Part shown: piece after piece, positions 11,231 through 58,113 of the stretch | Position numbering within the stretch: position 1 is the stretch's first letter | How the letters are laid out: every line of letters begins with the position of its first letter | Assembly (NCBI GenBank): GCA_002189035.1 | Contig: NEEC01000015.1 | Coordinates: 248,001-312,000, forward strand | Reading direction: 5' to 3' | Source of the DNA: Utricularia gibba | Lineage: Eukaryota; Streptophyta; Magnoliopsida; Lamiales; Lentibulariaceae | Length of the DNA stretch: 64,000 nucleotides | Translations under genes and position numbers: made by a program | Notes under the pieces: model-generated | Told to the model about the DNA's origin: nothing | The model's database searches: none | The model's input: only the letters and a program-made list of their open reading frames with translations

Positions 11231-13027
11231 TTAGGGGTAGGATCGGACGGGGCCGAAGTTGCAAAAAGATCTCGACTTGAACAGGCCGCCGAAGAGGAAC
11301 CTGGTGGGAGATTCTTGCGGAGGACCTTCCGGGCAGCCCTTCACTTTTAGTATCGTTTGGCCGATCGTTTGCCGGATGGAGTCGATGGTCTTAGGATCAA
11401 CCGGAAGCCCCGATGAGTCTCTGACGTAGAACGTATTCACGGCCTTCCCGGATTGCGTGGAAACTTCTGCTCGTGTCACGGTTAGACCGTTCTCCCGGAA
11501 GATTCTTGTTACATGGGACAGCAGCCCTACTTTGTCATTGGTACAGAGTTCGAGCTTCAGCCCCTGAAGATCAAGGCAACATTCCATTGCATTTATCGTC
11601 ACTAACATGAGTTCAAAAAAATGTAGCAGTCAATAGAGATGTTGAGCTGTGCTCACTTGCGAGATTCTTCTCCGTATCGCTGCTTCGAGGCACTGCACGA
11701 TGCGTTGTCGCTCTGCATCCGATTTCACGGGTGATCCATCGGAGTTCCTTATGCAATACTCCTTCACAAGGGGAGTCCTTGTGAGAGTCAAGGAAATGAC
11801 ATCAATGCCGCACAGAGATGAACATAAGAGAGCTGGTTACCTGGTAAGCTTGGGGCCCCTCGGAATCGAGATTCCCGTGAAAGACTACATATTGCATGTC
11901 TGTCAAAGTGCAGACTACATCAAACAGAAGCTTAGGCCTGTCTCTGCACCGGATCGTCACGACAGAGTAATCTCTATCCTGCCAATTAACAACACTGACT
12001 TTCGGCTTTTCTTCCTCCGCTGAACAGGCACTGCCCATCTGCTCGTAATCCCTGTCATCGAACATCATCTGGTGCAGCCTTCTCTCGGTGTGAGTCGTCC
12101 CAAGAGAGACTCCGGTCTTCGCTTCCCTCGATCGATTGCTACCCTTGAGCACATTGCATAAAAGCTTCTTCACCATAGCTAGCTTGTCGGGATCGGTTAT
12201 GGCACCGCCGCTTTCAACGTCTGTCACTTGCATTACAGCTGCTGCTCTTGTGTTGTGAGTCCACACCTCAGCATTCACAACATTGCAGCTCAGGCTTGTT
12301 AAAACTGCACTCACTTCTGAAAGGAGGCCCGGCCTATCGGTTCCAATTAATTCGATAAAAGTCCGGTCAGTCCTTGAAGTCACCCCCACTGATCTCCTCA
12401 TTGAAGATGAGAAGTAGGAATCTGGTCCAAGCGACTGTAAAGAAAAAGAAGAAGAATTCAAGATGTGTGTTTGGATGGCGTTAAGAAATTACTGATCATC
12501 AACAAACAACACACCCTCTCAATGTATCTCAGACTCTCTTCATCAGTAACCTTGTTTCCATCTGGATCTGTCACATTGAAAACTGGAAACGAAGGATCCG
12601 CCATTACCATTAGCAAATCGAAATTGGGATCACTTCGAACAACTCTCTAATGGAAATGCAAGCTTTACTCACCGTTCATGAACCACCCCCATCAGAGCAA
12701 ATGTAGGCCTTAGTTACGGTAAGATTTAGATCGGTGAGAATCTGCACAACCTCAAGCAGCATCCCCTGTTTGTTTAGACTGTCTACCTGAAAGACAGGAA
12801 ATGAAGTTTGGGATTGAGAACCGATACGGGTTTTCAGACATGAATGAAACACAAGGATCACCTGAATGACAGTTGCATTTTTGCAAGAATCGTTGTCAAT
12901 CACAACTCTGCCAATCAGCAGTTTAGTTAGTTGGGGAGGCAGGTATGAAAATAACTAGAAAAGCTGAAGGAAACGGATACCTGGGGGGATTCATTCTCTT
13001 GATTAGCTTTTTATATTCATCATCCAT
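11231..13027 (-). CDS. ACR4: ACR4-like ACT-domain repeat protein, frame broken by one base
   Basis: This is an ACT-domain repeat protein of about 440 residues with four ACT domains, a family of cytosolic or membrane-associated proteins thought to sense amino acids. The start is [15 protein letters not shown] (ATG at 13027), then [20 protein letters not shown] and [20 protein letters not shown] (ACT1). The 11802-12435 exon gives ACT2 and ACT3 ([20 protein letters not shown] and [20 protein letters not shown]). The last exon, 11231-11600, gives ACT4 ([20 protein letters not shown]) and the ACR4-like tail [14 protein letters not shown]. At 12686-12690 the minus strand has only five Gs where the family motif SDGGWFM needs six. 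As printed, the frame hits a stop just before the donor at 12677. One restored base rejoins all downstream exons in frame. The gene is therefore either a frameshift allele or an assembly error. A long leader intron probably lies upstream. Confidence 0.88.
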
Positions 13028-16000
13028 GTCTTTGGAGGAGCTCACAGAAACCTCTGAAGAAAAATTTGAAGGCTAAGAAAGTGATTCGAAACCAATCAAG
13101 AGTGAAAGAACTGGAAATAGAAATGTGTCAATGGAAGAAACTAGATATCTGAAGTGATCCTTAAAATATCAACAAGGACAACCAATCAAGCTGGCTTTCT
13201 CAAAACCTGAAAAAGGTCCATGTTTCCCTCTGTGAGTGCGGTGGCCCTGTGGGGCTTCAGCAATTTAATGGCAAGGTTTTAACAGCTCATGACTCACACG
13301 CAAACACAAACAGACCGTACCACGAAGGAAACACGTCAAAGAAGGAGTGAAAAGAAGACAGGCTGGAAAGATAGTGAGTACACAAAAAAAGAACAAATTG
13401 GGATTCACACAGGAACAAAGGGAGACACAACTGCAAAATCACAAGAACTTTAAAAGAAACCCACAAATTGATTGGAAGAAAAGCAGTCCCAGCGAGAAAG
13501 AAGTTGCCAGAAACTTGAAAAAGAACATCTCATCATGACCTAATTAAACAGAAAAAAGAAACCAGAGAGGAATTGGAAATGGGGCAAACAGAGCAGCAAA
13601 ATATGTCGCGTACCCATTAAAACTCAGGGAATGAAATCGACCTGCGGCAACAAGAATTTCTTGATTTCCACAGCTGGGAACGAGTTGCAGAATGGAAAAA
13701 AAACCAAAAAATGGACAACACCCACAAACCAAAAACCAATAAATGTAGTTTCCCAACACAGATTGGATCAAAACACACCCCCATAAAGCATTCTTATTAG
13801 ATTTCGTGAAAGCGTATCACACATTTCCCCCCTTTCCCACGGCGAGATCACAGACAAGTGTGAACCTTTGAGAAGCACCTCATATAAATAGAAGGTTTTT
13901 CCTCGACGGCCTTAATGGGATTTCTATTTCAGCACTTGTTTGAAAAATCCAGCCTTGGGTTTCGTTTCTTTGCCTCCCCACTTTCCAAATTACAAAAGCG
14001 AAAAAACAAATGAGCCCTCAGAAGCTTCAAAGGAGGAATTTCTTTTTTTCTTTCTTCCGTTCCGAACATGCTAGTTAACAGACAGCGTAATTTAGCAGAG
14101 GGTCCCACATTCCGGTACCATACCTAGTGTAGACCCGCTAAAATGCGCCACAACTTGCTCTTTTTTTCATTTTGACATTGGAAATCGCAGAGGGTGGCGA
14201 CTTAGGGCAAAATTTTCATGGGCCCCACATCAACTTGGTAGTTCAGTAATTACTATTACTATTATTATTACTTAAAAACTATTGTGTGTTTTTCTAAAAG
14301 AAGATATTATATGATAACATAAAAGGTACATTTTATTTCACCTTGTTTTTTTTTTGCCTGAGACAGAGTACGGTGGGTTTAATTACCCTCCTAGTCCTAT
14401 CTATCTAACGGTTTTTAGTTCTAACCCCGACCTGCCACGCCGGCACCCGGTGAATAGTAACTGGAATTAACTAACCCCAAGGCCAATAATTTGGTGACAG
14501 CTGTGGCATGACGAAGCATTTTGACCGTGGCACAGTATTTACTGTCCCTGGAATCCAATGTTTTTACCCAATTATAAATACACCCACCCAATTCCACAAT
14601 ATTTTATTTTTACCATTCATTCTTGGGATGCCCTTTTTCCAATTCTTTTAATTCTAGAGTTCTTAGGCTACCTGCACACCTACCCCGTAGACCCGGTCCA
14701 AAATCATATTTTATTTTTTAAAAAAAATCCATAAAATCGTATTTAGATTTTATTTTTAAGGATTCGTCAACCATCTTAGAATACGTACCCATCAATCAGA
14801 GTAGCCAAACACATTATATTATTATTATTATTATTATCTTGTTCAAAAATGTCAACACTACCCGTACTAGGAGAGTTAATGTGGTAGCCGCCCCCGCATG
14901 GGATTATCTTAACAAGTTTTTAAGATTTTTGGGCCTATCCTTCACTCCTATCACTTTAAACCAAAAATCCCGAAAAATAAAAGTCCCTTAAAAAACGGGT
15001 GATTTGGAAAATTACTTTTCTTCAATTTATTTTATTCATTAATAACCACTTTTCTAAATTATCCCTTAAAAACCCGGGATTATGTGGATGCATACAAGGT
15101 TTTAAATTCCAAAAAAATTTGGATTTTGAATTTTGACCAAAATACGGAATTTTAGGAGAATTTCGTATTGAAATACCACTTTGTTTCATAAATTGACTTA
15201 AATCTAAATTTGTATTGAAATAGTATTTTTCATCGGGCTCAATATGGCCAATAATACAGTGAATTCCGATAAAACAATGGATAGAGGTTGCGTAAAATGA
15301 TTGACCAATAAGATAAATTCATTTAGTAGCGATCTTAATGTCACGATCAATTCTTTTTGCTTAGGACATCAAATCTTGATGATTTCACGTTGTTTCCCAT
15401 CTTTAATGCTATATCGCACACATGCTTAATTTTGAAGCTAAAGGAATGGCATGAGGTGTGTATAATACTTGTATTTAATTCTTTTTTTCTTTTCCCCATT
15501 GTCCGTAGTAAATGACATGGAATTCGCATGTGTCAAATTTACAGCATTAATGAGAGGTGTGTGGCGTATTTGAATATTTGATTTAAAATATAATAAGTTT
15601 TTAGATTATGTTAATAGAATAAAATTAAAATTATAATATTTTTTATTGTATAATATAAAATTATATTATAAAATTCAATAAAATAGTTTATAAAATTTAA
15701 TATATTAAATTAAATATTATAATACATTAATACAATATAAAATGTAATAAATTTAATATTTATGAAGTAATTAAAGATTAAATTTCTAAAATTTTAATAA
15801 AATTAATTCAACAACTTATGTTTATCTTATTATTTCCTACCTTTGATAACACGATGTTACCCTCAGGTAAACGCATTTCCTTTAGCTTGTTTAACCCGCG
15901 GGTAATCAATCTGCTATAGACTTTGGGTGACGTGTGCGGTTTTGATTCGATGTGGGAGATTTACTTTAAGTTTTGAATAAAAGAATGGGAGGGTATCCGT

Positions 16001-18837
16001 TTCAACACTGACAGTCAAGATCTCTTGGTGCTTCTTCACGTTGGGGTGTCTCTCTTGCACATGCCCTCTCTGCCGCATACTTTGTCCTGTTGTCCCCCTC
16101 CCCTCACATGGAATGGTTTTCTTTCACACCCTCCTCTCCAAAACTTTCCCTTTTATCATCGTTTTTCTTATGGTTTTAGTGTATGATTAATAAAATGACG
16201 TCATTTTCATAGAAAGTGGATGCCATGGAGGAGCATCGGTCATGCTTCTGAGGGAATGTTGGTTTCGAACCATGGCGGTGGAAACCCTAACCACTGCAGT
16301 TCATTTTTATGCTGGAGGGTATTGATGAGCTCGACGACGTCGCTTTTAGGAGGAGATATGGGCGTCAACAGGCAAATCTGCAAGGCGAAGGGATTGTCAA
16401 TTGTGAGCCGGCAAGATTAGGGTTCGTGAACCGGCGGTGTGTGTTTGTATGCGGAGGGAAAGCGACCAACGACGAAACTCTAAACCGCGCAGACACGGCT
16501 TTGAACCAAACAGTGACGTGATACGAAGAAGGTTTCTGGTGTCTCCACCAGCAAAAAGATGGTCAAGTCAATTCTCGACGATGCGCGAAATCACCTCAGT
16601 CCGCCTGCCCAAAACTATTCGCGTTTCCACACACACCCCAATGCTTCGTGTTCGCATACCAAATCCAATTCACAGTGTCACGAAACCATGTTACACAGAG
16701 CTGGGGATTTCTTTATTACAATACCAAATAGATCCACCCAAGTGGGCAGGCGGGCAGAGCATGCCACAATGAAGTCTCTAACAAAGTATCAAACAAGCTG
16801 CGGCATGAGATCGAGCAGGGAGCTTCGAGAGATTATTTAGTGAAAATGTGTGGTGGTGAGGTGACGGTGGGAGGATCGGGATCTGGTCCATGGCCACGTT
16901 GTGCTTGCAGGGAATCACGAGGTGGCTGCACTGCGCAACCTTTTCCAAAAGGTACACAAACCAGCTGCTACTCCTGCTACCGCTACCGCTTGAGAAGAAA
17001 ATGGTGCAAGTCATTGAACTATACATACTGGTTATTGTTGATTTAACCCTCTGTATACAACTTATTTACCGCCTAAACAAACACCACAAGACTGGAATGA
17101 AACGGGCGCCTAGTTTATTCATTGATATTGGAAAGGTAACTTTTTTACAAAGGGTAAAACAAAAGAATGAATGATGGGGCAGGGTGAATCTTTGAAAGGC
17201 AACTTTTTAACCACTAAAGCGGTGAAAGCGGCCAACAGTCGGTCCAAATACCCATCCCCAGGATACAACCGTAAATAACAAGCAAGAAGGAGGGTAAATG
17301 ATTAAATCAATACAACGCAGACATACGGACAACAAGGGGAGCATAATTTAATTATCGAATGTTTAGAAAAAAAAAAAAAAAAAGAATCGGTTGGCGTTGG
17401 CGTAGGGAGGGGGGTTCAGTAGATCTCTGCAGCAGATTCTGATTCGCATTCTCACGCTTTTAGACCATCGGTCTCTAGCGCGTTTTCTTTTCTTAACTTC
17501 CGACAGAGACCCCAGGCCTTGTCCATCACCCACCCCAACCCTAACTAAAAAGAAGCACAAACGGAGGGGAGGGGAGGGGGTTTATGGACTAAATGATGCT
17601 AATTAATTAACCTCTAATCCATTTTAAGGGTGGACAAAACAAACACGTGGTGCTCACCTTACACGGATTGCTTCAATCCTAAGTCCACCCAATACTTCCC
17701 ACTGGTCAAAAAAGAGGGGAAAACAATTCTGGGTTTGGTGAGATCAATCTTTGTAATCATTAATGTGTTGAAAAGTAGACTGCTCATGTTTTGGAGAAAA
17801 ACAGCAGTATATTTTATTCGTATAATATTATAAATATAAAAACAATTACAATCTGTTATTTAAATCACTTTTTTTAAGTGAATATTTTTATAGATTTCAA
17901 TTCATCGTATTCAAAAATTATGAATTCACATTTTGAATTAATTTTAGATTTTTTTTTAATTTCTATTGTAATTATAAAAAGTACATTATTCATTTTATAC
18001 ATAAATTTAAATTATATTATTAAACTATATCTTAATTTAGTATATAAAATTCTATAATATAATAATAATTTAATAATGACTCACACCAGATGTTATCCAA
18101 CTTTTACGAATATACAATTATAAAATTATTATATTTAAAGATATTTATTTAATCGTTAGTAACTAATGTGGAATATTATTATTAGACAATTGATCTTAAT
18201 TTTAAAAAATAATTTATAATTTAAAAATTTTAATTTATTCATAAACCTAAAAATTTGCAGCACAAATTTAAAAAAACTTATTATTTTCAATAAACTTAGG
18301 AATCAATTCTGGAATCAAATAGAATAAAGTTGTGTTCAACGTAGTTGGACGGGTCAACATGGCCCACTTTTTTATTATTATTTTACTATCAAATGTTCTA
18401 GAGGCCAGCCTCAGACCCAATGACGTGTCGCCGTCGGAAGAAGAAGAGCTGCCGAGTTTTAATGAATAGCCCTGGCCCGAGTCTCCACAAGGGAGGCCCA
18501 ACAAGCAACTTACTGACGGTGCTGGAATTTATTTATTTTTAAATAAATTTGGATATTATATTTATTAATTCTTTTCTGAATTCCCTAAATCTCACCATTC
18601 AAAGCGCAGAATATTGTTTGTTTTGGGATATCATCCATCGTCTTGCTTGGAAGGGGCTTCCGGGAAGACTGAAAATCCTGGAGCAGTCAGACGCCGAGCA
18701 AGTCTAAATGAACAGGTATCAGTTTCCCTCCCAGATGGCGGCACCCGCCACTGGCTTCAACCGCGTCCAGGGCAACAAGTGATCAGTTATACAACATGGC
18801 ATGGCGATCACCATAAACTTGAGAGGCCTACCGATTC
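13028..18837. other. Long AT-rich intergenic region with an unidentified GC-richer island
   Basis: About 13030-13900 is probably ACR4 leader and intron sequence. 14200-16000 is AT-rich with a TTA microsatellite at about 14817-14836 and no coding signal. A GC-richer island at about 16200-17570 holds several overlapping ORFs on both strands, none longer than 111 codons and none recognisable. An A17 tract follows the AT-rich end of this island at about 17367-17383, which could mark an old retroposed copy. 17800-18300 is again very AT-rich. GGCCCA-type motifs cluster at about 18360-18500 upstream of nothing obvious. Confidence 0.35.
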
Positions 18838-20987
18838 TCATGTCTTCTGTCTTTTCTGAGCTCGATCCACACCTTCACTGCCACCAGCTTCTTGAAAAGC
18901 CCCAGCGTCCTGGTGAATCACTGGAATGGCATGATCCTGGTAGGTATAGTTTGCGGCGGCAGCAGAGAGACACAGTGGAGTTTCAGTTAAGGACCATCAG
19001 GGTGGCATCCCCCAATTTTCTATTTTAACACTCTACCACGACTTACCTTGGGACTTCTTATCCCGGAGATGGAACTTCCATCCACTTGCCTTCCGAGATT
19101 GATCTGAACTGAGACAGTGGCTTGTGAGAGATCCAGACCTGTGAGCTCGAGAGCTTGAGTCAATGAATTCAACAACCTGACAATGGTTTGGGGAAAAAAG
19201 TGATGAGGTTCAATAAAGTATGATACTCACGACCCTCAAATGGATATAAAAAACTACCTTTGGGAGTAAACGCTCGAGATACTGATGGTTCCCCCTTCGA
19301 CTGTCAGCTCACCTTGATGGTTCAGTGCATCACAAGCGCTGGGACATTCTGTTGGTGGTCCATCCGGAAGAGGACCATGTAACACATGGGAAAAGGCACC
19401 ATCAGTCACACTGGGGTTTGGCAAGTTGGCTTGCAGATGCAATGGGATTCCCATTGCACTGTTGGATAGCTCAGTTTCTTGGTCTATTGATCCACAAGGT
19501 GCTTCCAGTTCCACGGGATTCTGCTGACCCGAATGCCTCAATGCACTATTCTCATCGACTCTTCCGGGAAATGTTGCACAAGGGCCTGACTTTATGGTCT
19601 GTGGCTGGCTAACAAAATTATGGGCAGGCCAATGACTGTTTCTCTTTTCCAGAAAAGAAAACATAAAGTCAGATAGATGACGATAAATTTGAAGGGGAAC
19701 AACACGCATTTCGAGACCTGCAATATTAAGAACATGAAACACATGCTAAAGGTCAATAGTTTACCCATGGCATCAGCTTTGTAGGCTCTGAACTCCATGT
19801 TTGATATGAGCCCTCGTACTTTTGAACCTTCTCTTGTAAAAATTGTACATAATGAATCACCTGCAATGGTTGATCATCGTTCAGGTTACAGAAGCAGCAA
19901 ACTAATAACTTCACAATACATTCAGATCACACGAGTGGGAATGCCAAAAATTCATCTTGTAAATAACAAGCAGCCGCTACAAAAAAAAAAAAATAAAGGC
20001 TTAAAGTAGCATGATACCTCTAACAAAAAAGATGCAGTGTCCCGCTTCTGATCACTGTCAGGTATAAGCCCTCTCAGTATTTGATACCTGAAGCACAGGA
20101 AAAGAAGTTTCCTGATCACACTGTGGTAACAAACTTAAATGGAAAAAATTGCATTCATCCATTTCTACAACGAAGTTGGGGAATGGAAAAGTAGGAATTT
20201 TGCACCAATTTCTACAAGAGAGCTCAACAAAAAACCCACAAAAAGATCGGCAGGCAACTTGGATGCAGATAAATAAAGCATAAGGGATGAAGAAGCCCAT
20301 AAGAAGTAAGGAGTTGCAGGTACAGAAGTACAAATATGCACGCCGAACTCCTTCTTGAACTTTACAGGATATGTCTTTGGGACAATCCAGACATGTCCGA
20401 GTTTTCTCTTGGCGGATTTCTTTAGCAACTACATAGGGGACAACACCAAAATCCTTCATTTTTTTCATTACATAGATAGCAATTGTTACTTCTAGCATAT
20501 GGCGTCCATGTAATTACCAGCTACAAGCATGTCATCAACTAACAACAAAACGAATATGCACGGATACTGTCTCAAAGATAATGTGAAACTGAAACATATA
20601 CTTTCATATAACTCCAACAGTTGTACGAAATTTCACTACCTTTCGTTTATCTTGCTTCTTCGTCTCTGCTCTGTGACGGAGTGTTTAGACCTCGTGACAT
20701 TCGCCTTGTCGCTGCTTTTTCCATCTGACGCAAGTTAACAAGATTTCACTTCATCAAATTACAAAATCCCAACCTCCCCACCCCCAACCCAAAAGGAGAA
20801 AGATTTAAAAAAAAAAAAAAAGAAACGGTGGGTCATCACGGATTCAGATCGTGCAAACGGTTAAGGAAACAAAAAGCCGGTCCACAAAACCTTTGCTGAG
20901 ATTCGTTGATGGCATGGCATCTCTCTTCCCGCAAAATTCTTCATCCTCCTCCTCTTCCTCTTCCTGATGATTCTTCCCAGGTTTCAT
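18838..20987 (-). CDS. BIM2: BIM-type bHLH transcription factor (BIM2-like)
   Basis: This is a bHLH factor of the BES1-INTERACTING MYC-LIKE group, which binds E-boxes with BES1/BZR1 in brassinosteroid responses. Exon 1 (20891-20987) encodes [18 protein letters not shown] and closely parallels the BIM2 N-terminus. Exon 2 (20640-20724) holds the basic region [18 protein letters not shown]. The next exon gives [20 protein letters not shown], then [19 protein letters not shown], the helix-loop-helix. The large exon at 19260-19620 has the family motif [14 protein letters not shown]. The last exons give [20 protein letters not shown] and the basic tail RAQKRQKT followed by TGA. Splice junctions are canonical and phases agree throughout. 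The tail is characteristic of BIM proteins and has been seen as ACT-like. The start was chosen by the match of exon 1 to BIM2; the overlapping 73-codon ORF in another frame is a shadow. Confidence 0.9.
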
Positions 20988-21765
20988 TCCTCTTCCAGCT
21001 TTCGTCGCTCTCCCTCAAAATCGAAGCTTTCCACTCCGACACCGCGGAAAAGCAGGTAAGAAACGCACCCACAAAATTTAAATCCAATTTCGCCGTCCGA
21101 TGTAGCAAAAGTACGGCGGAAGAATCACAGAAATCAAAAACAAAATACGACGGTTCTATCAAAATGCTTCAGTTATTGCTGCACTGGCTCCTGACCTTCC
21201 TCTCGGTGTACCGGCAGAGATGAGCTGGTCCTTCCCTAAAAAATGACACCATTCTTTTCGATAGACTAAAAATGTCTTTCTATAAATATTCTCCAGTTGG
21301 GCAACATTTTTCAGGAATAAATTTGCATATTAAATTCAATTTTACATTACTCAAAAATAATCTCAAAATTATTTTTTATTAAATAATTTAATGTTCCTGC
21401 CTTCCTGCCCACCAAACAGAAAATAATCATAAGAATAATAATGCATAGTCTTTGTACATGTCTCGATATATCCACACACACACACACACACTGTGATCTT
21501 CTTTCTTGCCAGCAACTTCTCGTACATGAACCAAACGTCTCATGCTTATCATGAAATGGGCGCCCTCGATCCTGTTCCAAGAAGCAACCGCAGATACTGC
21601 TTGTTCCCTGCTGCTGGCTTCCTTGTTGAGCTTCGGTTGGTTCTATGGTTGATGGGTGAAAGAACGATGGCTTGGCCTGTGCAGAGATGGGATGATGGAA
21701 TCGATCAAGATAAAGCAATTTCTTCGAAGGCGTTGCTGATCTGATCACCTAATTAGGTGTACCTT
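20988..21765. repeat. Spacer with a CA microsatellite
   Basis: The gap between the two bHLH genes holds the BIM2 leader and promoter and the 3' end of the subfamily XII bHLH. A (CA)n run of about nine units lies at 21473-21491. 21300-21440 is AT-rich. ORFs in this stretch have no family match. Confidence 0.5.
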
Positions 21766-23501
21766 TTACATCTTCCCCATGTGAACCATGTTGTGAAGCT
21801 CACCTTCCCACACATCAGGTACCTGTTTGTGTAAATGGCTCAGAGAATGGGTAATCCAGCACTCCTTTTTTTACATACTGAGGAGGAAGTGTTACTTGAG
21901 GTGCAGGCTCTCCAGGCGGGAGGTTCATCGGCCTTCGGATGATTATAGACGAGCTTCCCATTTGCATGAATCCATGTTGCGGGGGTGAAGTGGAGCAGGA
22001 AAGGGAACTGCCCCCGGTCGGCTTTGAAATCCCTGCAAATACAGGCACACTTCGCACGACTCGAACCAGAACAAAACAGGGGATTTCATGCGTTGGGAGT
22101 GTTTTCTTACATCCGTAGTTGAATATTGTTCAAGGTTAAACTCCAGGTGAGGATACACCGCTGCGAGTTTCAATGACAGTAACTGAAACAGAGCAGAAAG
22201 GATCCAGTGAAGATAGCTATCTTCTTCTCAAGTTCAAGATAAGATAAGATGATGCCTTAGTGATTGGAAGAGTCCAGCACCTCAACCTGCCGCTGCAGGG
22301 ATTGAACATAGTTGATGATTTCATCAAGCATCACGGCTTTACCAGTGACCTGAAAACTTGTATACCAGTTAGTTAATATTGTATGGAAAAAGGAGTTAGC
22401 ATAGAAGATCTTCATACCTTATTACATCCAGGCACAAGATCCTGAAGAAACTTCATCCTTTCACTGATCTTCTCCCTTCTTACCTGAATTGCAATGGAAG
22501 TTTGAATGAACTCAGCCTTTTTAAAGTTCAAATGGAATGATCGAGTTTTCCTCACTCGTTCAGCAAGACTATGGCTGTTCGTTGCCTGGCCTCGTCTTGC
22601 TCTAACATGAACGTAGCCTTCTTTTGGAAGATCCGAACCATGAGCTTTGGCATGGTTGCCCCCAGAGGCATTTGCTGTAGTTAGATTGGAATCACCTTTT
22701 GGTTTTGTGTCCTCATTTTCCTTGCCTCCTTCGCTTTCTTCATCCTGGCAAAGAAGACAGTAAGCTCATTGAGTGATTCAAATCTGATGAATGTGAACCA
22801 TGCAAGACCTGTTGTTCAGAAGGCTTCTTTCTCTTCTTAGAGTGAAGTCCTTTAGGAGTCAAATCCTCCGGCTTCCCCTCCTGGCTGTATTCAGTATCAC
22901 CAGACTCATTTCCAGATACACGACTTCTTGCCTCACGAAAAGGGTTCATAAAACTCCTGCATTCTCTAGTGTTCTTGAGCAGCCTTCCATCTTCAGCTAC
23001 GTTGTGTTCATCCCGTTGGGACTGCATCCCAGTTTCTGCTTTCAGAGCAAAGGGATTCATGGAATGGGCAAGAGGAAGAGGACTCAACCATTGAGCACAA
23101 CTCCCACGGAATGATGATAACCTTGCGGCTCTTTCAATAAAATCTGAATCAGTTGGAAGATGAGGTACAGTCTGAGATACAAGAGAGGGAAAACTCAGCT
23201 GAGAAATGTTCTTCCCCAAAACCAGATCTTGGTGCAATCCCAGATCAGCTCTTATGGAAGGAGAGCCAGGAGAAGTGCCAGCATTATGAAAGTTCATATC
23301 GGAGTAGCCGAAATTAGAAGCATCTAAACGGTGCTGCCATACAAAAGACTCAACTCCAAATGAATCAATCATTGGCGCAGATAAATCCATCACCATGTTT
23401 TCCATTGAAGCCATGGACGGAGTTGGGAGATTCTGATAGTTCATTGGTTTGCAGCTGCCCTCTTGCTGGAGCTCGGCATCTTTTCCGGCCATCAAATCCA
23501 T
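21766..23501 (-). CDS. Subfamily XII bHLH transcription factor (bHLH62/77/78-like), frame broken by one base
   Basis: A bHLH factor of about 440 residues. Exon 1 (to about 22745) encodes the long variable N-terminus, ending near [11 protein letters not shown]. The following exon carries [20 protein letters not shown] and [20 protein letters not shown], the subfamily XII basic region and first helix. Next are [20 protein letters not shown] and [16 protein letters not shown]. The second-to-last exon starts [17 protein letters not shown], then the family text continues in another frame as [20 protein letters not shown]. The shift sits at a C5 run on the minus strand (plus 21981-21985); a sixth C would join the frames. 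A 73-bp intron then leads to the final exon, [16 protein letters not shown], with TAA at 21766. Relatives are CIB-type and bHLH62/77/78 factors in light and growth control. Function of this copy is inferred. Confidence 0.85.
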
Positions 23502-26500
23502 TTTCTCTGCACAAAAAGAACATTAGAATCCATTTCAAATCCTTAAAAACACCCTGAACGCAAGCAAAATGAAGCAACCAACTAACCAAGACGAACACTG
23601 CTTTTTTTTTTTTCAAATGTAAACTCAAAGCAGCATAAGCTGAGAGAAGTAGTCTGTTTTAAACGTCTAGAGCTAAGGAGAAGGTGTGGCTTTTCACAAT
23701 GAAAACAACGAAAAGCAGACTCTAACAATATGCAATGTGCTCCTATTGATAAAGCCGAGCAAATTGCAAATCATAACTCATATCCAGATTCATGATGCAT
23801 AAATTCAAAGAAACCGCGAAAAGAACCAGAAATGTGCAACGAGAACACCAACACTCTGCACTACTTCCAGCACCATTCCCAAAGTAGTTCACTGAAATTA
23901 AAGCACCACAACCCATTAATGCCCAGAAGAAAAAAAAACGCGGGCGATGGACCCAGCATATGGGTGGAGTGTTCAGAAGCCAAACCAGTCAACAAAAACA
24001 AGAACATTAATTCATCGCCATAAATACCATCAACGCACGCATTTACCCATATATAAATAAAAACCTTTGGTCTGAGAGAGGATAAAGTGTCCCGCTGCGC
24101 CGTGGAAACAGACGTAAAAGTGGGGAAACGAAAGAACAGGTACCTATTTCAGATTGCAGACTACTTTTAAAAGTCCATGTTATTGAAACTCCTAACCAAT
24201 GGATGGCTGCTACTTAAAAAAAAAATTGAACTTCTGGCCACAAGGTTACTGTCCGTAGTCCGTCGAGACGAGGCTGCTACCTGTACTACGTACTGCGCAG
24301 TGAATTTAAGACAGCAATAAAGTTGGGCAGAAAGAGCAATGGAGGGGAAGATCAAGGAAAGGTAGACGGAGGGGAATGGAGAAACGAAAACCTCAAAAAA
24401 TGGGAGTTACTGACTCGCAAGACCCCCATTTTTGCCGCGACGCTTTGCCTAAAAAACGAGACAGCGCTTCATTATTGACCTCGAGACGCCCCCATCCTAT
24501 GCCGGACGGAATTCATTCCTTCAGAAGGTAGATGATGATACGGGTGCCGCCACCCCGGTGGCAAGTTCATGACTTTATTCCGTGTTTTTCTTAAACCACA
24601 ACACGTACACACCATCTCGATAAATCCTTAGCTACCACGTTTACCGATGAATCCACCCTAGATCATTTGTTCCGTTTTGGTTTGGCAGGAGGGCGGGTAG
24701 CTTTTAAAGTCATGGCTCTGGTTATACCGATTTTGATCCGACCAAAACCCGATTGTCGGGTCCATCCATTGGTCAATTTGAGCCCTTGTGGAGGAGGGAA
24801 TTTTGTCTGTGACTGTGCAACTTGTTGAAATTATTAGCGTGACTTCATGAAATGCTATCGGTTTCCGCCATTGATCGGCAACTGGGGCGGCCGAGATGTT
24901 CATCTTCTTTTCCACCACACAAAATGCTCATTGTCGAACCATTCCGATCAGTGTTGAGCATGCTCCTATGTTCCTTCGAATGGCAATGCCAAGAAATTGC
25001 TTGAAAAATATTATTATGTATTAAATAAATAATGAATAAGATATTTATCATTGTTATGATAATTTTGTGATGGATCAACATGAGATTTGAGAGTGATAAC
25101 CAACTATTATATAATCAATGTTATTAAAAATTAAAATTATTATCAAATAATCTCTATTATTTTGAGTTATTTGAAATCCAAAAAATGATAAATATTTTTT
25201 AAAATTAAATAAACGTGAATAAAATTATTATTTTATAAATAATTTAAAAATAATATAATAAGTATTATTTAAATTTTATTAATAAATAAAATAAAATTTA
25301 TTCTATTTTTAAAATAAAAAAATCTTTATAAGTGAAAAAAAAAGAGGGGGTGAAAACCTGACAGGCGGCAGGGTAGGGGTGTGGGGCCGGGGATTAATGG
25401 CTGCCCGTTGTCGTTATTTCGTAGCCCTTGTCCTAATCATTTGGTCCGTAAACGTTCCACGGATGAGGTCACGTTGTACGGATTACGAGAAATGAGGTTT
25501 CTATGAAGTGAATAGATTATGGGCCGGGCTCACCTAATGAGTAAGAAGATGGGCCCGATTATTTGGCCACGGGCCCATCCCACACAGTCGTCGTTACTCT
25601 CGAGAAGGGGTTTTTCCATTTCAGAAGACGTGGCGAAGTTTTGTGTGAATTCGAAACCGCCTATTGGGGAGACGGATGGCGATGCTGATAATGGGCATTT
25701 TGGGTTTCGTTGATGTTTGGATTGGTGGTTTTTGCTTCCGTTGCTTCGATTCTCTGCTCAATGGCTTTCTGGATTGATGTTCACGAGCGATGTGGGTTTG
25801 TAGGGGAAGGCCAAATATCTGATATGTTGGAGAGTCTTGAATGTTCTGGGGGTTCGTAAGCTTGTTTATGAATTGATGTTTTTTACAATTGATCATGCTA
25901 TTTCGATCCTTGCGTAGCCGGAGGGTGTAGGTTTCTTGTGGCATATGTGGTTGGCTGGATCCTTGCTGCTATAAATCTCAGAATGCCAACGACATTTGTG
26001 AAATCCGTAGAAACCATGGGGCATATTGCTCCTTTAAGTCAGTCGAATGCACTGTTTGGTTGCGTGAAAAAATTAGGTATGCTGCAAAGATGGTTTCACA
26101 CGGAAGTTTTTTCCAGGGAAACAGACGAGAACAGCATGACCATGTGGTGATAATTTTACGAAGTTTCTGTACATTTGACACGAAATGCAGTTATACCAAG
26201 TTGAGTGCGAAAGTGGGGCACACACAGTGATAAAAGTAGGACTGAGACCACTCAGCACAACTAAAGATGTTCGAGGAACATGATCATTGCCACCTGTATC
26301 GTTACTAGTGGAAGTTTGGAAGGCGATGAACTTAAAGAGGACAAGAAAGAAAAGGGCCTTCCACACATGATGTGCAGCAAAATCTTTTGAGCAAAGTTCA
26401 CAACTTTACTTGGCTGTGAGTATTTCCTTTGGGTTTTCAATCACTTCAATTTTTGCATGCTTATCTATCTACCCCACAGGAGGAGCACCAGAGTAGTGGA

Positions 26501-26760
26501 TTTTTTGTGTATTAGCAAGAGGAGAAACGTGAAACTCACGCTAATCTTATCCTGCAAAGAAAGTGTAAACCCTGCGTGTTGTTCCATCTTTCGTAGTCGG
26601 TAAAATCCTTTCACAATCAAAACCATGTGATTCTTGGATCCATCTCCCTGTGCTTTTTCTCTCACGTCATGGTGCCTTTTTCCCGTTTTAACTTCTCATT
26701 TCCCTGAATTCTGAATATTTTTTGCCCTCTTCTCATCAGTCGGAAGAACCAGGGGCAGCC
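23502..26760. other. Intergenic region between diverging genes
   Basis: The left part is probably leader, intron and promoter of the minus-strand bHLH gene. About 24990-25340 is extremely AT-rich. From about 25340 the sequence becomes GC-richer, with three GGCCC/TGGGCC motifs at 25510-25580, and likely includes the promoter and a non-coding leader (with introns) of the plus-strand gene at 26761. ORFs here are short and unrecognised. Confidence 0.4.
25510..25580 (+). promoter_or_regulatory. Cluster of TGGGCC/GGGCCC site II elements
   Basis: Three copies occur within 70 bases: atgggccggg, atgggcccga and acgggcccat. Such clusters usually sit within about 200 bases of transcription starts of plant housekeeping genes. 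This suggests transcription of the gene at 26761 begins near 25600 with a long, spliced leader. This is inferred from motif content only. Confidence 0.4.
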
Positions 26761-30600: not shown

Positions 30601-30617
30601 ACAAACCAGAGATAAAA

Positions 30618-30717
30618 GCAAAAAACTAGGTCTCCAGACTCTACTCTATTTCGGAAAGCTGAATCTTTATCCATGGCAAAATCCTTTTCCTATCATATGC
30701 AAAAAACTAGGTCTCCA
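30618..30717. repeat. Perfect 19-bp direct repeat
   Basis: gcaaaaaactaggtctcca occurs at 30618-30636 and again at 30699-30717, with a 62-bp spacer. It lies at the downstream end of the PRP4-like fragment. It could be a slippage or insertion footprint, or a local duplication. The copies are identical. Confidence 0.6.
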
Positions 30718-32229: not shown

Positions 32230-32564
32230 CAACGAGCTCAATTAAGGATTCCAGATACAGAAAAATTTGAATGAGACGTGACTGAACCTCGTAATTGTCG
32301 TCAGATGCGATTTTCTTTACTTATATATTATAAACCATATTCAATCAAAAAAATTAGCAAACACCCGATTTCATGGTTATTACTACAGACAGATGTCGGA
32401 AAGTGTAGTTCTGTCAGGAGCTTAAATTCATCTAGAAGTAAATGTCAAAACAAAGGAGCAACTGCTAACGAGTTCACAGGCATATTCACGCCAACTCACC
32501 AAGAATTACTTGAACACGGAAATGATGAAAAGAATCATAGAGGGAGGGCCATGTTCCATTGACT

Positions 32565-36848: not shown

Positions 36849-36896
36849 TGTGTTGCAGAGCATTACTGCTCTAACTCTGCCGCGTCTCGCAATGCT

Positions 36897-44692: not shown

Positions 44693-44708
44693 CCCCCCCC
44701 CCCCCCCC
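44693..44708. repeat. C16 homopolymer tract
   Basis: A run of sixteen C residues sits in non-coding sequence between JAGGED and the MBL gene. Tracts of this length are unstable and can form i-motif or G-quadruplex structures on opposite strands. The exact length should be treated with caution, given the apparent short G/C runs in coding exons elsewhere in the window. Confidence 0.8.
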
Positions 44709-46209: not shown

Positions 46210-46295
46210 TTTTAAGTGGGTCGCCGGAAAGCCCAATGTAGGAATGCGATTAGCCCAATTCAAGTATAGCTTTCGATGGGCCTGGGCCTAGATGC
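46210..46295 (+). promoter_or_regulatory. GCCCA/TGGGCC motifs upstream of the MBL gene
   Basis: Four motifs (aaagcccaat, ttagcccaatt, gatgggcc, ctgggcct) lie within about 80 bases, some 250-330 bp before the MBL start codon. This is a typical site II cluster for a constitutively expressed plant gene. Confidence 0.4.
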
Positions 46296-46537
46296 TACGT
46301 AATTAATTCATTTTTTAGGAAACAATTATTTGGGAAAAAAGAAACTAATCGTTGCCTTCTTCATTAATGACCTACCGGCTAGCCTGTTTTCTTGATTTGC
46401 AGACAATTACACGGAGGAAATCCGGGAATGAAAAATTGAGCCGTTGATGGGGAGTGAGGTGTAGGCAGCGCCGTTGATAAGCTATTTCAGTTGTTCGAAC
46501 TTGATGCTTTTTGCCGGGAGGTGCTTGTGAATCACAA

Positions 46538-49910: not shown

Positions 49911-50020
49911 TTGATGGATGTACCCAAGTTGCTGACACCATGAGTCATCCATCCATCCATCCTAGTGTTCTATGCATCCATGAAAACATAAATTGAATTC
50001 CCTTTTAATGAAAGAAAGAA

Positions 50021-52181
50021 TTAGTGACTAGAGCGGCAGGGATCTTCAGACACAGAAGGGGAATCCGAAACAGAATCTATGGCAGATTCATGTGACTGCG
50101 AATCTTCGTACCCACGAAGCTCTTGTATCATCTTCAACACGTGGCTCATCTTGGGCCGTTGATCAGGTAACGTCTGTGTGCACGTCATTGCAATCTGCAA
50201 CAAACCGACCATATCTTCTTCAACATCTCTATACCTCAAAAGCTCCAAATCGAACACCTCCGAAGTCCACTCCTCTCTCACAACGGACTGCACCCACTTC
50301 GGCAGATCGACAGCTCCGAGGTTCCCGGCGGCGACACCGTTGTTTTCGACGGTAAATGGGCACTTCCCGGTAAGCAATTCGAGTAAAAGGACGCCAAAGG
50401 AGTAGACATCAGACTTCGCGGTAAGCTTTCTGGTGTCAACCGCTGCCTCTGGAGCTCGATAGCCGTTGGATTTGAGTGATGCGAATGCCGATAGGCCGAA
50501 GTCGGAGAGTTTCGCATTCCCTTCTCCGTCGATGAGAATGTTGGTTGATCTGATGTTGCCGTGGATGAGCCGGAGCGATCTGCATGCACTGTGGATGTAG
50601 GCTAAGCCACGAGCTGCGCCTATTGCAATTTTGAACCTTGTGGCCCAGTCTAATGGGGTTCTTCCCGGTCCTCTATTTCCTGTCAGTAAAATGGTGAAAG
50701 AAAACGAGAGATGAGAAACCCGAGTAAGTATGGTGATGGTAGCACATGGACAGGATGCGACAGGGTTAACTAACAGAACCCCATGTGGTAAAAGAAAAAA
50801 AAAAGTACAGCGAGGTACCGTGAAGAAGCCAGAACAGACTGCCGTTGGGCATATGATCAACTACCAGCAGCTTCTCATCTCCGGCGAAGTAGTAAGCTTT
50901 GAGATTAACTAGATTTGGGTGTCTTAATCGCCCCAGAATCTGCATCTGTTGCTCAAATTCTCTCCTGGAAACCCGTTCAAATCCTTTAATCTCTTGACTG
51001 CAACCACAGTCCCATCATCCAGCATCGCTTTGTAAGTTGTCCCGAATCCACCTCTTCCCATCATTTCAGCTGAAGCTCTCAACAGATCCTCCAATTCGAA
51101 TGTTCTTTCCCCGTACAAGAACACAATTTTACTCCTCGAATCGGAGAGGGATTGTAGTGGACAGGGGTGTGGGGGGTTGGAGTACGAGTAGGGGCTGCTA
51201 GCTGAGTACATGATCTTCTCTGCTTCGTTGTTCTTATTCCCGGATGGCAGAAAACTTCTGGAGCCTTTCCCCAGAAGTAGCAGTACAGAAGCAGGAAAAC
51301 TGCCCCAGAACAACGGCGTCTCCGATTATTATACAGAGTAATGCCAAAGAACTTATTTTGCTGCGGTGGGGTTTCGCTGGAGCGCCGATTACACCCGGCA
51401 TTGTGGTCGGAGAAGAGGCGATGGTTGTGTTCGGGGTGAGCGGCGACGCCATTGCTCCGCCGGGGTTGGAGGAGGGAGGATTAGAAGTCGCTGCACATAG
51501 ATTATCCAGCGGCCGCCCGCATAAATTAGGATTATTCGAAAATGCCGTCGCCGGAAAAGCGGAGAGCGAGGCGGGTATCTCTCCGGTGAAGTTGTTTCCG
51601 GTGACATTGAAGTCCTGTAGATTCGGTAACCGCAAAAAGGAAAGAGGACCCGAGAGTCGATTTTGTTCGAGTCTCAGAGTAAGCAAACGTAGGAGACCGA
51701 CGACGCTGAACGGGATTTCGCCGGAGAAGTTGTTATACGACAGATCGAGACGATTAAGCTTGAAAAGAGAGGTAATCGAAGATGGGAAGTCGCCGGAGAA
51801 GCGGTTATGGGAGAGGAAAACGAGTTTGAGGTTGGAGAGTGGAGAGAGATCCGGAATCCCACCCCAGAAGTCGTTTTTCTTGAGACTCAGAACTCGGAGC
51901 TGGGTTAAGGAGACGATTGGTCCGGGGAACGGCCCCGTGAGATTCAAATCTTCGAGGACCAAATGGGAGACGCGGTTGTGGAGACAAGAAACCCCGCGCC
52001 AGGATGCGGAAGCGTTGCATGGGTTTGAAGAAGCGTTCCACGACTTGAAGACGGCGTCGTTTGGATCGACGGCGGACTTAAGGAGTAGAAGAGAGGGTGC
52101 GTCGGGGTGGTGGTCCCCAGCAGCGGTGCAGTGAAGAAAGAAGAAAAGGAGCACCGCGGCCGTGAAGCGAACCACCACCAT
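50021..52181 (-). CDS. LRR-III receptor-like pseudokinase, frame broken at three sites
   Basis: An LRR-RLK of subfamily III (At5g67200/At1g68400 type) of about 650 residues. A signal peptide ([20 protein letters not shown]) precedes LRRs such as [20 protein letters not shown] and [20 protein letters not shown], a Ser/Pro/Thr linker and the TM region [17 protein letters not shown]. The kinase has [10 protein letters not shown] (lysine), then [13 protein letters not shown], where HGN replaces catalytic HRD, then [12 protein letters not shown] and SNGYRAPEA. It is probably catalytically weak or inactive, acting as a scaffold. Three single-base frame breaks are seen: C4 runs at 51303-51306 and 51269-51272 and near the C3 at 50972-50974. 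One extra base at each restores [25 protein letters not shown] and [13 protein letters not shown]. An in-frame ATG at 52229 gives a proline-rich extension; I prefer 52181 for the signal peptide. Confidence 0.87.
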
Positions 52182-52229
52182 TCGTCTCTGGAGTACCTCC
52201 CGCAATGGCGGCGGCGGCGGCAGCAGCAT

Positions 52230-52743
52230 TGTCGTTGAATGCCAGAGACTTGCGGCGGCGGTCCGGGGGGTCAGAGGGAGTGGCGGGCGCGGAGTTTTAA
52301 CTGTAAAGCGCCGCCATTAATTCTCAGAAAGCGGGCTTCAGAAAAAGCTATGGGTAACCACCAGTAGTACTCCGCTCCATCGATTTACCAGCTTTTAAGA
52401 GCGTTGGGTGAAGCAATTACAGAACCTGCATCTGTACGTCCCTTCCCTTTAATACTCCCATTATTAAATATATTTTTACTTTTGTTTTGTACGGTGCATC
52501 CTTTTCCTTTAAAAGCACGTGCGGTGTTTGAATAAGTCACGTGCCACAGGGGGCAGTTAGTCTTAGATGGGAAACACTTTGTGCCAGAGTGAAGTGCCAT
52601 TTTTGGGCAGGCGATGTCCGAAAAGGTACAAAGAATCAGGGAAGAGCCAAATAGGACAACGAATTCTTGATGAATCAATGAATGATGATGGAAGAAGAAG
52701 AAGAAGAAGAAGAAGAAGAAAGGGAGAGCCAGCCACTGCCTTG
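52230..52743. repeat. Spacer between RLK and PP2C genes with GAA microsatellite
   Basis: The gap holds the RLK promoter and leader and the PP2C 3' flank. An (GAA)n run of about ten units lies at 52691-52720. A G/C-rich stretch at 52250-52300 precedes the RLK start. The overlapping ORFs of up to 185 codons are low-complexity shadows around the GAA run and the PP2C gene. Confidence 0.5.
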
Positions 52744-54635
52744 TTATACGACTTTGATTCCACTGGGTCGTTTCCCTTCCATGGCGTCCTTCTTGTTTCT
52801 GCAGTCTGCACACAGAAACGGGCCTTGCCATGGCTTCGAGCTCATCGAGAATATGGAGCCCGCGTGAACGGAAATCCCCTCGTGCGGGGCGAGATCCACC
52901 TGGCAGATGGCGCACACGAACAACCCATCGTTGGCGTCAGACCCCGCGTCATCGTTCCCCAGCCTGTCCAGTTTCAAAGAAGATCAGTGTGTGTGCATCC
53001 CCAATCCATCCCGTGTGAGAATCAGAAAACCAAAATGCGAACCTCTCGGCAAGCATTGCTGATCCCTCTTCGAACAATTCTTCCACAATCCCAACTGAAG
53101 ACAGTTTCTTTGATAGTTTGTTAGCAGACCAAAAACGCTGCTTCCCTGAAAACAAAGCTTTAAGCTTGCTGTACTTTTTCAGTGGAGGTAGAGGGGGGAG
53201 CTCGGTCACAGTGCTCTCCGGAGGGATTATGTCGACTACAATGCATGTTGTGTCATCCTTCAGCCCATTTGTGCGTAATGTTTCCTATATGTCGCAGTGT
53301 ATCAGATTTTACTGAGTCCGAATTTCATCATCAATCAGGGTTAGAAGCAGATGATTACCTTGACAAGTTGTCTAGCAGCAAGTTCTGTGGGCAACCCACG
53401 GCAGCATTTTGCTGCAGTTGCTGATGAAAGTGCATCCCAGACGCCATCAGAGGCAATAATCAGCCTTCCCCCCGTGCTGGATAACTTTACAAGAATGGAA
53501 GATGTCAGGGCTGCATAAGCACACAGTAGTAAAACAGGGAATTGGGAGCTTACTTTAACTTGCTTGACATATGGTACGGGTACAATGAATTCGCCTACAT
53601 CCATGTCGCCAATTGATCTCGAGAGGCATAGACCTCCGGGCCAACAACGAAGAGGACCAACCTAAAGTTGTGTAACATTAGGGGTACTGTGGGTGCTGTG
53701 AAAAGTCTTATCACACAAATAGGCTTGCGGGCATCTCACCTCAGTACCACCACAAAGACTAAGCCTCCCAACTTCACCTCCACTTGCTGTTACACGTTCC
53801 CTTCTGCGATTTTAGGACATAAAATTAATGGCCAACGATGAAGTGGAATCAGGATAGACAAAAGCAAATAAGCATACTCTTCGGCATTTTCTTCAAGCCT
53901 ATGATCAACTGTGAGGACAGATACTCCACTGCCAGGACAATCTAGAATACAGCGTGAATCTCCAACAGATGCCACGGTAACCGTCCAACCATCTACTATC
54001 ACGAATGTTGCTGTAGTCCCAGAAGTTTTTCCTGCACATTGGGGAGAGTTGAGGTATCAGCTTCCATGAACAACTACTCATAAAACCTTCTCCAGAACAG
54101 AATAACGTGCCTTTACTCTGAAAAACCTTGTCAGTTTTAACAAATCCAGCTACTAGAGCACGTGGTAAGGCATGAAGCCATTCATCCCGATCGAGACCAC
54201 GAGGGATGGCATCTAAGACATAGTTTAACAAATGATCTCTTGAAAAAATGGCAGCCGCGTTCCCGTTATGTCCATCAAAAATCTGAAAAGAGGGAATGTT
54301 AATACAAGAAAAATTACAAGCTACTACCATGGACATTTGATATGCCATTCACAGGTTTGACATTTCATCAGGCATATCGAGAGGGAGATTATAATCCTTG
54401 AAATCAACTAGGAATAGCGTACCCCAAAAACAGAGAATGACGACGACGGATTGCCAGGAACTCGCTGGCAATCACTTCTCATCAAGAAATAATCTTCCCC
54501 TTTCCTAGACTGTGCAGCAGAGCCGCATCTTACTGTTGGCTTCTCCAGCTTCTCATGCTTAAACTCCCTTGATATCAGTGAAGCTAAAGGCACAAGAGCT
54601 CCTCGACTACTATTCTTGTCTTTCCTAGATCCCAT
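52744..54635 (-). CDS. PP2C protein phosphatase with C-terminal Cys-rich module (At1g47380 type)
   Basis: A PPM-family Ser/Thr phosphatase of about 400 residues. Exon 1 (to about 54422) gives MGSRKDKNSSRGALVPLASL and KGEDYFLMRSDCQRVPG. The next exons encode IFDGHNGNAAAIFSRDHLLN (metal-binding DGH), LPRALVAGFVKTDKVFQ, then SGTTATFVIVDGWTVTVASV with GDSRCILD, VGPLRCWPGGLCLSRSIGDM, FIVPVPYVKQVK and LIIASDGVWDAL. After DDTTCIVVDI comes a basic linker (LKALFSGKQRFW), VEELFEEGSAMLAER and a C-terminal module, FVCAICQVDLAPHEGISVHA, ending in DCRNKKDAMEGKRPSG. The order and C-terminal cysteine module match the At1g47380 (PP2C 12) branch. Metal ligands appear intact. The first-exon donor gives FG|IFDGH in phase 0, matching the family. 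No frameshift. Confidence 0.9.
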
Positions 54636-55434
54636 CTATGAACACCTTATATCTAACTAACAATTACTGGAGTTAAAAGTCAGAATTATTAGTAGAACAC
54701 AACAGCAGACACCATCTTTGATGCCCTCCTCCCTGAAATTCGATCTCTACAAAACCAGGGAAAAATCGAAGTCCTTTTTATTCAATTTCCCACAAACCCC
54801 ATACCACAACTAAAGCGCAAAAGCATCCACACCCCACAACCTCCGATCACCTCAAATCCTCCTCAAGATTTCACCTGCAATTTTAACATAACAATAAGCT
54901 CCAACACCGCAGGACGCCAAATCCATGAAAGATGACGGCGAAAGGAAAACATTCCACAAAAAGTCAAACCTGCAATAACCCGCTGTACTACTTCCTCAGA
55001 GTTCCAAAAGAACACCAGAGGCAGATCTGATAGCGACCGCTCAACTTAGAAGAAGCCACTGATAAATAAAAGCCGGAAAGATTCAACCGGGAAAGCGTGT
55101 TGCCGAGCTGTGAACGAAAGAACAAGCCCAAAATCAACGAAAACCCATCCCCAGCTTTCGCATTGAATAACAAATTCAGAAATTAAATATACATTCTCCG
55201 AAGATGTCATTCCATGGCACAGATCAGCATTGCGGAGGCTGCAATGGCGATATTTCCTGCTGTTCGGATACATTGGACGACAGCTGGCACTGACCCATCG
55301 TTCCCAGTGGAGCGCATTCACTTCCCCTCTTTTCCTTCCCAATTCCTCCCTCCCTCTCTGGAAAGCTTTTTTTTTTTTTATATATTTAAAATATATATAA
55401 TATTAAAACATCGTACGGTTTTCATTTTCCAGAT
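54636..55434. other. Spacer with the PP2C leader and LRK10L 3' flank
   Basis: Probably the 5' leader, including a leader intron, and promoter of the minus-strand PP2C gene. The right end, with a T run at about 55367-55379 and AT-rich sequence, is the LRK10L 3' flank. Short ORFs lack domains. Confidence 0.4.
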
Positions 55435-57689
55435 CTACCCCTCTGAGCAAGTGTAAGCTGTTGAACCAGAGCTACGCCAACCATCAACAACCGCCTTCGG
55501 TGAATCCTGAAGCTTCTGCTGGCTAAGCAGCCATGCCTCGTCCATGTCGAGAAACCGACTCGACCTGCGACCGCGTTCATCGCCGCCTTGAATGCCCTTC
55601 AGAATCACTACGATCTCGTTCATAGAAGGCCTGAAGTCGCTTTCCGTGTGCAGGCATCGAAAGGCCAGCTCCGCCACCGCTTCGGTCATCTTCGTGACCT
55701 TCGGATCCGACCCGAATCCGATACGCGGATCAATCAGTTCGTGAAGCGCGGATCTCTGGATCCTGTTGACGGCCAAGTTCGCCAAGCTCACTTCGCTCCT
55801 ACTGCGGGTGATATCAACGGCAGGCATTGAGGAAATGAGCTCGATCAGGACAACTCCAAAGCTGTAGACATCGCTCTTGTCCGTCAGCTGGTAGCATCGG
55901 TGGTACTCCGGATCCACGTATCCCGGAGTTCCCTGCGGCGCCGTCGAGACATGGCTCACGTTGTTCGGAAAAAGCCTGGAGAGACCAAAATCAGCCACCT
56001 TCACGCAGAAATGGTCGTCCAGCAAGATGTTGTCCGTCTTCACATCGCGGTGGATGATGTCCGATTTGTGGAGATACGCCAGCGCGCTAGCAGTTTGCAC
56101 CGCGATCTCCATACGAACCTGCCATGGAAGCACATTCTCCTTCGACTTCTCGCCGTGTAGATGATCCGCCAGCGTGCCGTTGGGGATGTACTCGTAGACG
56201 AGTAAGAGCCCCCGGCTTGTCCTCGAGGTGCACCCGTACAGAGACACCAGATTCGGGTGCCTTAAGCAGGTCAGAGTGTTGACTTCGTTCATGAAATGAT
56301 CCATTCTCTTGTGGTTCCGCTCGTATAACCTCTTCACTGCAACTTCTCTTCCATCTCCCAGTTTTCCTGGCACAAGCCCCATTCAAAACATAGCACCCAA
56401 CGAGCACATTTTGTGACACAACATGCAGTGAACCCCTGTTGGTGAGTGATGAAAGGCTTACCATAGTAAACAGTTCCGAAGCCGCCGTCACCAAGTTCCC
56501 TGGAATCGTCGAAGTTGCAGGTGGCTTCCTGAAGCTCTCTGTATGAAAATATCTGAACTCCATGTAAGCTTGATGCTTCGACTTGTGAAGAAGAGGTGAA
56601 GGAAGATGCACTTCTAAGGTACACTCCCCTGGTTCGTATACATCTCCATTGTCGCCAGAGTAGGAACATCACTGCTACGAGTAACGCAAGTATCACTACA
56701 GCCGCAGGTATCACTGTAACAATGAAGACAAAAAAAGGGGAAAAATAGAATTAACAAGGCATAGGATTAGATATAGAATTCAAAATAGATGACACTGCTA
56801 CTTACTTATAGCAAGGAGGAGTTTCCAGTTCCGCGGGGATTCTGAGTTCAACATGCGAAAAAAAAACGCAGTTGTTAATTTTATTAGTTACCAAAATGAA
56901 TTTTATTAAAAAAAATTAATTGGAGAAAGTGATTACCGTCGCAGGTTCTCCAATGCGGCCCATCAGGGCAAAAGCACTTGAAAAGGCGAGTCGTTCTGTT
57001 ATACCCACAGCGGCCGCCGCTAACTTCACAGCGGTCGCATTTACTTGCGGTCCAGTTCAGGGAAAATCCATTCCGCAAGTACAACGAAGCAGCATTCGCC
57101 GATATATCCCCGCCGCTGCTGCCTCCATCTTTTATCGGAACAACAACGGTTCGATCACAATTACTGCTCGCGGCTACGTCGATCACATTTCCGCCTCTCT
57201 GAGAATAAGCCCAACCCCAATTTGAATCACACCCTCGTTATACGACGGGTCCTGGTCGTACTCAGGATCTTCGCAGTGAATGAAAAAATTCAGATACGAT
57301 GTATTATCGCCATACCGGAAATTCTCTGGAAGAGTGGTGTTCGAAATATTTGATGCAATACAGCCTGCAGAATTAGTTGCGTTCCACAGTCTCACACTCA
57401 AAGATTTTTCCCCATAAGAAATTTCTCGAATCTCGTAATCGTTCCCAGAAATGTTGAGAATCGGGAACCCTGCCCGGCATCTTACGGCGAATCCGTCGAA
57501 GGGGTAGCCACAGTAAGGCGGCTGCTGATTCACAAGGTAGAATGGGAAGCTGATGTCTGGGGCCTCGGAGGAGTTACTGCATCTCGCCCGTTGGCACGCT
57601 TCGAACCGTGAATCATCGGTTGCAATCGCCGATGAGATGATTACAGAGACGAAGAACAAGTTTACGGTTGCTGCTACAAACTTGGGCAT
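55435..57689 (-). CDS. LRK10L-type receptor kinase (LEAF RUST 10-like), frame broken in ectodomain
   Basis: A WAK-associated receptor-like kinase of about 650 residues. The signal peptide MPKFVAATVNLFFVSVIISS precedes a GUB_WAK domain (SFPFYLVNQQPPYCGYPFDG, GFAVRCRAGFPILNIS). After a one-base shift, NWGWAYSQRGGNVIDVAASS continues to the WAK_assoc C-terminal motif CEVSGGRCGYNRTTRLFKCF. A TM segment (MIPAAVVILALLVAVMFLLW) precedes the kinase: LGDGGFGTVYYGKLGDGREV (glycine loop), VAVKRLYER, IIHRDVKTDNILLDDHF, VADFGLSRLFP and GTPGYVDPEYHRCY. All catalytic residues are present, so an active kinase is expected at the plasma membrane. Stop TAG is at 55435. The shift maps to a short G run (C3 on plus at 57232-57234); one added G gives EGCDSNWGWAY, a sensible cysteine in this domain. 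An upstream ATG at 57767 is in frame; 57689 is favoured for the signal peptide. Confidence 0.88.
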
Positions 57690-58113
57690 ACTGACCTGGA
57701 AAATTCCGCGATCACCAGCTGATAAGCAACGATCGGAAAATGGATTGAGCTTGGGGAGGAGACTCATCTCCTCCAGGTTGGATTAGATTCCGCGTGAAAA
57801 AGTGGCGCTCAAGTCATCCGTCTACTTGACTAATTTCCGAAGACGAAGCTTCTTCTCTGTAGGATATGTTTGAATTTTCCCAAGCCTGTCGTTGTCTGGT
57901 TGGGTTACGACTTGGTCACATTAAAAACATTGCACTGCAAATGTTCAGCAGCTTTAACTTAAGGGAAGAAACTAGCAGCAGACGCCGGTAAACTTTTCTG
58001 CCTGAACCAAATGGCTAACCAAAGCTAACGGTAACCAACAGTCATGGAGCCGAAGAAGCCCCCATTGCCATTGAAAAGCTAACCTACTCAAGAGTTTGGA
58101 CCTGGATCTGGGC
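57690..58113. other. Spacer upstream of LRK10L
   Basis: About 420 bases with the LRK10L promoter and leader and the 3' flank of the acidic protein gene. An in-frame alternative start (57767) lies here. No other feature is seen. Confidence 0.4.

Follow-up and report, generated by a model that had tools for sequence, protein, structure and literature searches.

Frame breaks in five genes of the window

In the assembled genome of Utricularia gibba, five genes of one stretch lose their reading frame within conserved sequence, which raises the question of whether the plant carries these lesions or the assembly introduced them. The window, meaning the whole stretch of DNA that was analyzed, is 64,000 nucleotides long and corresponds to C412:248001-312000 of a 516-contig, 100.09-Mb assembly. 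Single-base losses in five genes had been claimed from the sequence alone. Three-frame reading confirmed this, with seven frame breaks in five minus-strand genes, each step corresponding to one missing base. The splice phases are consistent both upstream and downstream of the breaks in all five genes, so the earlier statement that the repairs give correct downstream splice phases was borne out as well.

The broken genes are ACR4 (one break), a subfamily XII-like bHLH gene (one), RAD23 (one), an LRR-III receptor-like kinase (RLK) gene (three), and LRK10L (one). Pfam hits in the window to ACT, kinase, LRR, UBA/XPC-binding/ubiquitin, and WAK-associated domains support the family assignments. The names ACR4 and LRK10L, which are finer than the Pfam-based family calls, and the subfamily XII label of the bHLH gene are putative assignments, made by likeness to known members of those families. 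The break sites are listed below, with the runs given as they stand in the assembly, on the plus strand, and all genes on the minus strand.

ACR4 break: CCCCC at 12686-12690, minus-strand gene; GGGGG on the gene strand, one base short (SDG-GWF); from the frame change, homeolog L072, and frameshift alignment
bHLH break in the last exon: GGGGG at 21981-21985, minus-strand gene; CCCCC on the gene strand, one base short; from frames and homeolog L022
RAD23 break in exon 3: GGGG at 34354-34357, minus-strand gene; CCCC on the gene strand, one base short; from frames, splice phase, and homeologs L021 and L024
LRR-III RLK break 1: CCCC at 51303-51306, minus-strand gene; GGGG on the gene strand; from frames and frameshift alignment
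LRR-III RLK break 2: CCCC at 51269-51272, minus-strand gene; GGGG on the gene strand; from frames and homeolog L012
LRR-III RLK break 3, in the kinase domain: CCC at 50972-50974, minus-strand gene; GGG on the gene strand; from frames and homeolog L012
LRK10L break: within about 57180-57260 (about 80 bases), minus-strand gene; from domain frames

Two further frame changes in the bHLH gene, at about 22740 and 22540, were rejected as breaks, as they are ordinary GT..AG introns. In LRK10L, no intron separates GUB_WAK_bind from WAK_assoc, and the two domains are read in frames that differ by -1. No paralog in the same genome covers this site in the homeolog comparison. Because the evidence consists of domain frames, without a covering paralog, the LRK10L break is located only to the interval of about 80 bases, in which the most likely run is CCCC at 57215-57218 (plus strand; GGGG on the gene strand).

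Rfam and tRNA searches found no Rfam family and no tRNA within the window. A 98-bp element occurs at 13109-13206 and 29442-29539 as an inverted pair 16 kb apart, with 97 of 98 bases identical; one copy sits just upstream of ACR4, and the element has no match in Rfam.

Homeologs and selection around the breaks

Homeologs turned up in DNA searches of the genome for ACR4 (on C3), the bHLH gene (on C375), RAD23 (on C451 and C2), and the RLK gene (on C451). At six of the seven break sites, the homeologs hold the missing base or keep the frame, LRK10L being the exception. The homeolog DNA is one base longer at the ACR4, bHLH, and RAD23 sites (in two homeologs for the last) and at the second and third RLK sites. 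Frameshift-aware alignment of homeolog proteins to the window DNA independently recovered the ACR4 break, placed at 12690, and all three RLK breaks, the first placed at about 51293.

The segments flanking the ACR4 and RLK breaks have dN/dS of about 0.07 to 0.18, with dS above 1.2, and the relaxed selection expected of a pseudogene is not seen there. The RLK homeolog is itself broken by -1 at ACGGGGAG, where the window sequence is intact.

Window positions 19 to 55 kb are largely collinear with an inverted homeologous block at C375:2918381-2981266, as expected after whole-genome duplication. In the PP2C region (window 52742-54930 versus C375:2918381-2921146), the homeologs are 77 to 83% identical in DNA, above the RLK pair (69 to 76%), and the matches occur in several frames and on both strands. 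No near-identical second copy was found in the same assembly for window positions 11200-13300, 15300-35200, and 50000-57800.

Breaks in conserved families across the genome

As a genome-wide control, we used profile searches with GRAS, HSP70, BAHD, and HSP90. Many genes of these families were split into two adjoining pieces separated by a gap too small for an intron. Where the pieces lay within 60 bases of each other, the junction offset was -1 in 28 of 34 cases (binomial P = 2e-4) and +1/-2 in the other 6. Two of these six have gaps of 55 to 58 bases and may be introns; also among the six are a junction that consists of two -1 steps, another close to the end of a contig, and one in a decayed locus.

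Thirty breaks were then placed by alignment in GRAS, HSP70, HSP90, RLK, and ACR4 sequence. This set leaves out loci judged to be intron bearing, decayed, or at a contig end, some of which held other step sizes; the GRAS loci C4:1155k, C375:103k, and C1:1229k (introns or uncertain) are among those omitted from the counts. Under-calling in the assembly is expected to give predominantly single-base losses, and all 30 breaks are of this direction, 27 losing one base and 3 being net -1. Errors are also expected to concentrate at homopolymer runs. G/C runs of at least 4 are present at 53% of the 30 breaks compared with 8.4% of positions drawn at random from these sequences, and the mean G/C run length at the breaks was never reached in 20,000 resamplings; A/T runs of at least 4 are not enriched (10% versus 9%). 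Together with the junction offsets, these figures agree with the earlier view that the repeated losses exceed chance.

Six GRAS genes have the junction of their profile pieces close to one shared, conserved RPGGPP-like motif, whose codons form runs of G and C, and in most of the six, the located break falls at this motif. Such recurrence is what a context-dependent error would give. BAHD sites read by eye again showed G/C-run losses in most cases, plus one larger deletion. The sequence-only reading had placed the losses mostly at runs of three to five G or C; genome wide, the affected runs can be as short as one or two G/C, as at CCG[G]AT in an HSP70 gene, and as long as six, and the lost base need not copy the run base.

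Across 5,679 codons in 16 broken GRAS/HSP loci, we counted 24 breaks and not one in-frame stop, so the mixed lesions expected of pseudogenes, including nonsense changes, are not what these loci contain. The HSP70 and HSP90 copies with a break are 91 to 98% identical around it to an intact paralog.

The break density in the GRAS loci is roughly 0.3 per kb (17 located breaks, about 59 kb of coding sequence). For the window, with 7 breaks and a coding length put by eye at a rough 17 kb, it comes to roughly 0.4 per kb. By this measure, the window does not stand out from the rest of the assembly, and the neighbor genes listed earlier as unbroken are therefore no surprise.

Long G/C runs are scarce in the assembly

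Homopolymer runs were counted in 290 kb sampled from the genome. For G/C, there were 987 runs of length 4, 205 of length 5, 58 of length 6, 3 of length 7, and none of length 8; such runs came back only at 12 and longer, and A/T runs fell off smoothly with length. Whole-genome counts, made in this assembly alone, were 14,854 at length 6, 2,706 at length 7, 214 at length 8, and 98 at length 12, a sharp drop past length 6 to 7.

Genome wide, G/C runs are thus scarce at length 8 yet persist at 12. The window itself has a run of 16 C at 44693 and no G/C run of 7 to 11.

The same DNA assembled twice

Consensus errors of this kind should leave indels, not substitutions, between duplicate contigs, and two contig pairs have this pattern. 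C422 and the end of C414 differ by no substitution and 11 indels over 1.6 kb, almost every indel being a loss in C414; this replicate is a contig end, unlike the window. Over 4.1 kb, C316 and C412, the contig that contains the window, differ by 1 substitution and 10 indels, each indel being a loss in C316. The losses include GG to G, CCCC to CCC, and CCCCC to CCCC, and an open frame of 615 codons in C412 is broken to 412 codons in C316.

The next 6 kb of C316 and C412 have 11 substitutions and 4 indels, and the pair is therefore partly allelic. We used it as a replicate over the first 4.1 kb only and dropped the further 10 kb, which consist of these substitution-rich 6 kb and a remainder of rearranged repeat. 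C241 and C304, identical over 1.8 kb, have one HSP70 break in common. A systematic error could account for this, and so could a real lesion or the use of the same reads in assembling both. With identical sequence and a common break, this pair was set aside as a test of random error.

Origin of the breaks

The seven breaks are almost certainly consensus errors of a long-read assembly and not biology. The base caller or the consensus step would leave one base out of a G/C run, or now and then drop a lone G or C, and so shift the frame of genes that the plant carries intact. We favor this explanation because the losses go in the -1 direction and lie in G/C and not A/T context, because the broken GRAS/HSP loci have no nonsense changes and the ACR4 and RLK breaks are flanked by sequence under purifying selection, and because the same lesions occur in unrelated conserved families genome wide. 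The shortage of long G/C runs argues for it too, as does the finding that near-identical contigs differ almost only by single-base indels. Against it, some losses occur at a single or double G/C, which are not true runs. The platform was probably PacBio continuous long reads, and each window site, taken individually, is presumably an error. Assembly under-calling of G/C homopolymers had been proposed as the simplest cause for the five genes; our results support it and extend it to the whole assembly.

It is highly improbable that the window copies are real recent pseudogenes, decayed by small deletions after whole-genome duplication. Four of the five broken genes do have homeologs, and the genome holds some decayed copies (GRAS loci L068-L070), but the breaks at the GRAS/HSP loci come without any nonsense change, they run in one direction only, and dN/dS around the ACR4 and RLK breaks is low. 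Moreover, neither RLK copy would be intact, since the homeolog bears its own -1 break.

If a mutational bias of this lineage were really deleting single bases from G/C runs, for example through oxidative damage or weak mismatch repair, the breaks would be true, and both the preference for G/C runs and the rarity of long ones would result as well. We regard this as very unlikely, as lesions are found in strongly constrained genes (HSP70 and HSP90) and contigs that hold the same DNA have few differences other than indels. It is equally hard to credit that a lineage-wide G/C-run deletion bias is tolerated, or repaired at the RNA level, in this miniature plant genome. The chance that real DNA breaks are repaired by insertional RNA editing or by programmed frameshifting at translation is practically negligible: the sites are in unrelated genes and share no feature beyond G/C runs, they differ between contigs of the same DNA, and the homeologs encode the base in DNA.

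With consensus under-calling as the explanation, any gene loss, pseudogene, or truncated protein claimed straight from this assembly should be verified with short reads or cDNA, since there is a fair chance of a false frameshift in an intact gene of 2 to 3 kb. The truncation of U. gibba DCL3 has been confirmed by RNA-seq and 5' RACE (PMC8333044), and on that evidence we dropped it as a candidate product of assembly losses.

Comparison with known assembly errors

Similar losses are known from PacBio consensus sequences. In a PacBio/Quiver assembly of a 2.9-Mb chromosome and plasmids, 561 single-base homopolymer deletions were present before Illumina correction, about 0.2 per kb (PMC4888979), and homopolymer errors outlast Quiver (PMC5458083). 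The U. gibba breaks resemble these in being single-base losses that break conserved frames at a similar density. They differ in that G/C runs are hit, A/T runs are not enriched, and some losses fall outside runs. Kastor (PMC12007338) deals with gene-fragmenting errors in long-read assemblies and was built for small genomes, whereas the present case is a plant genome; in both, frameshifts mimic pseudogenes.
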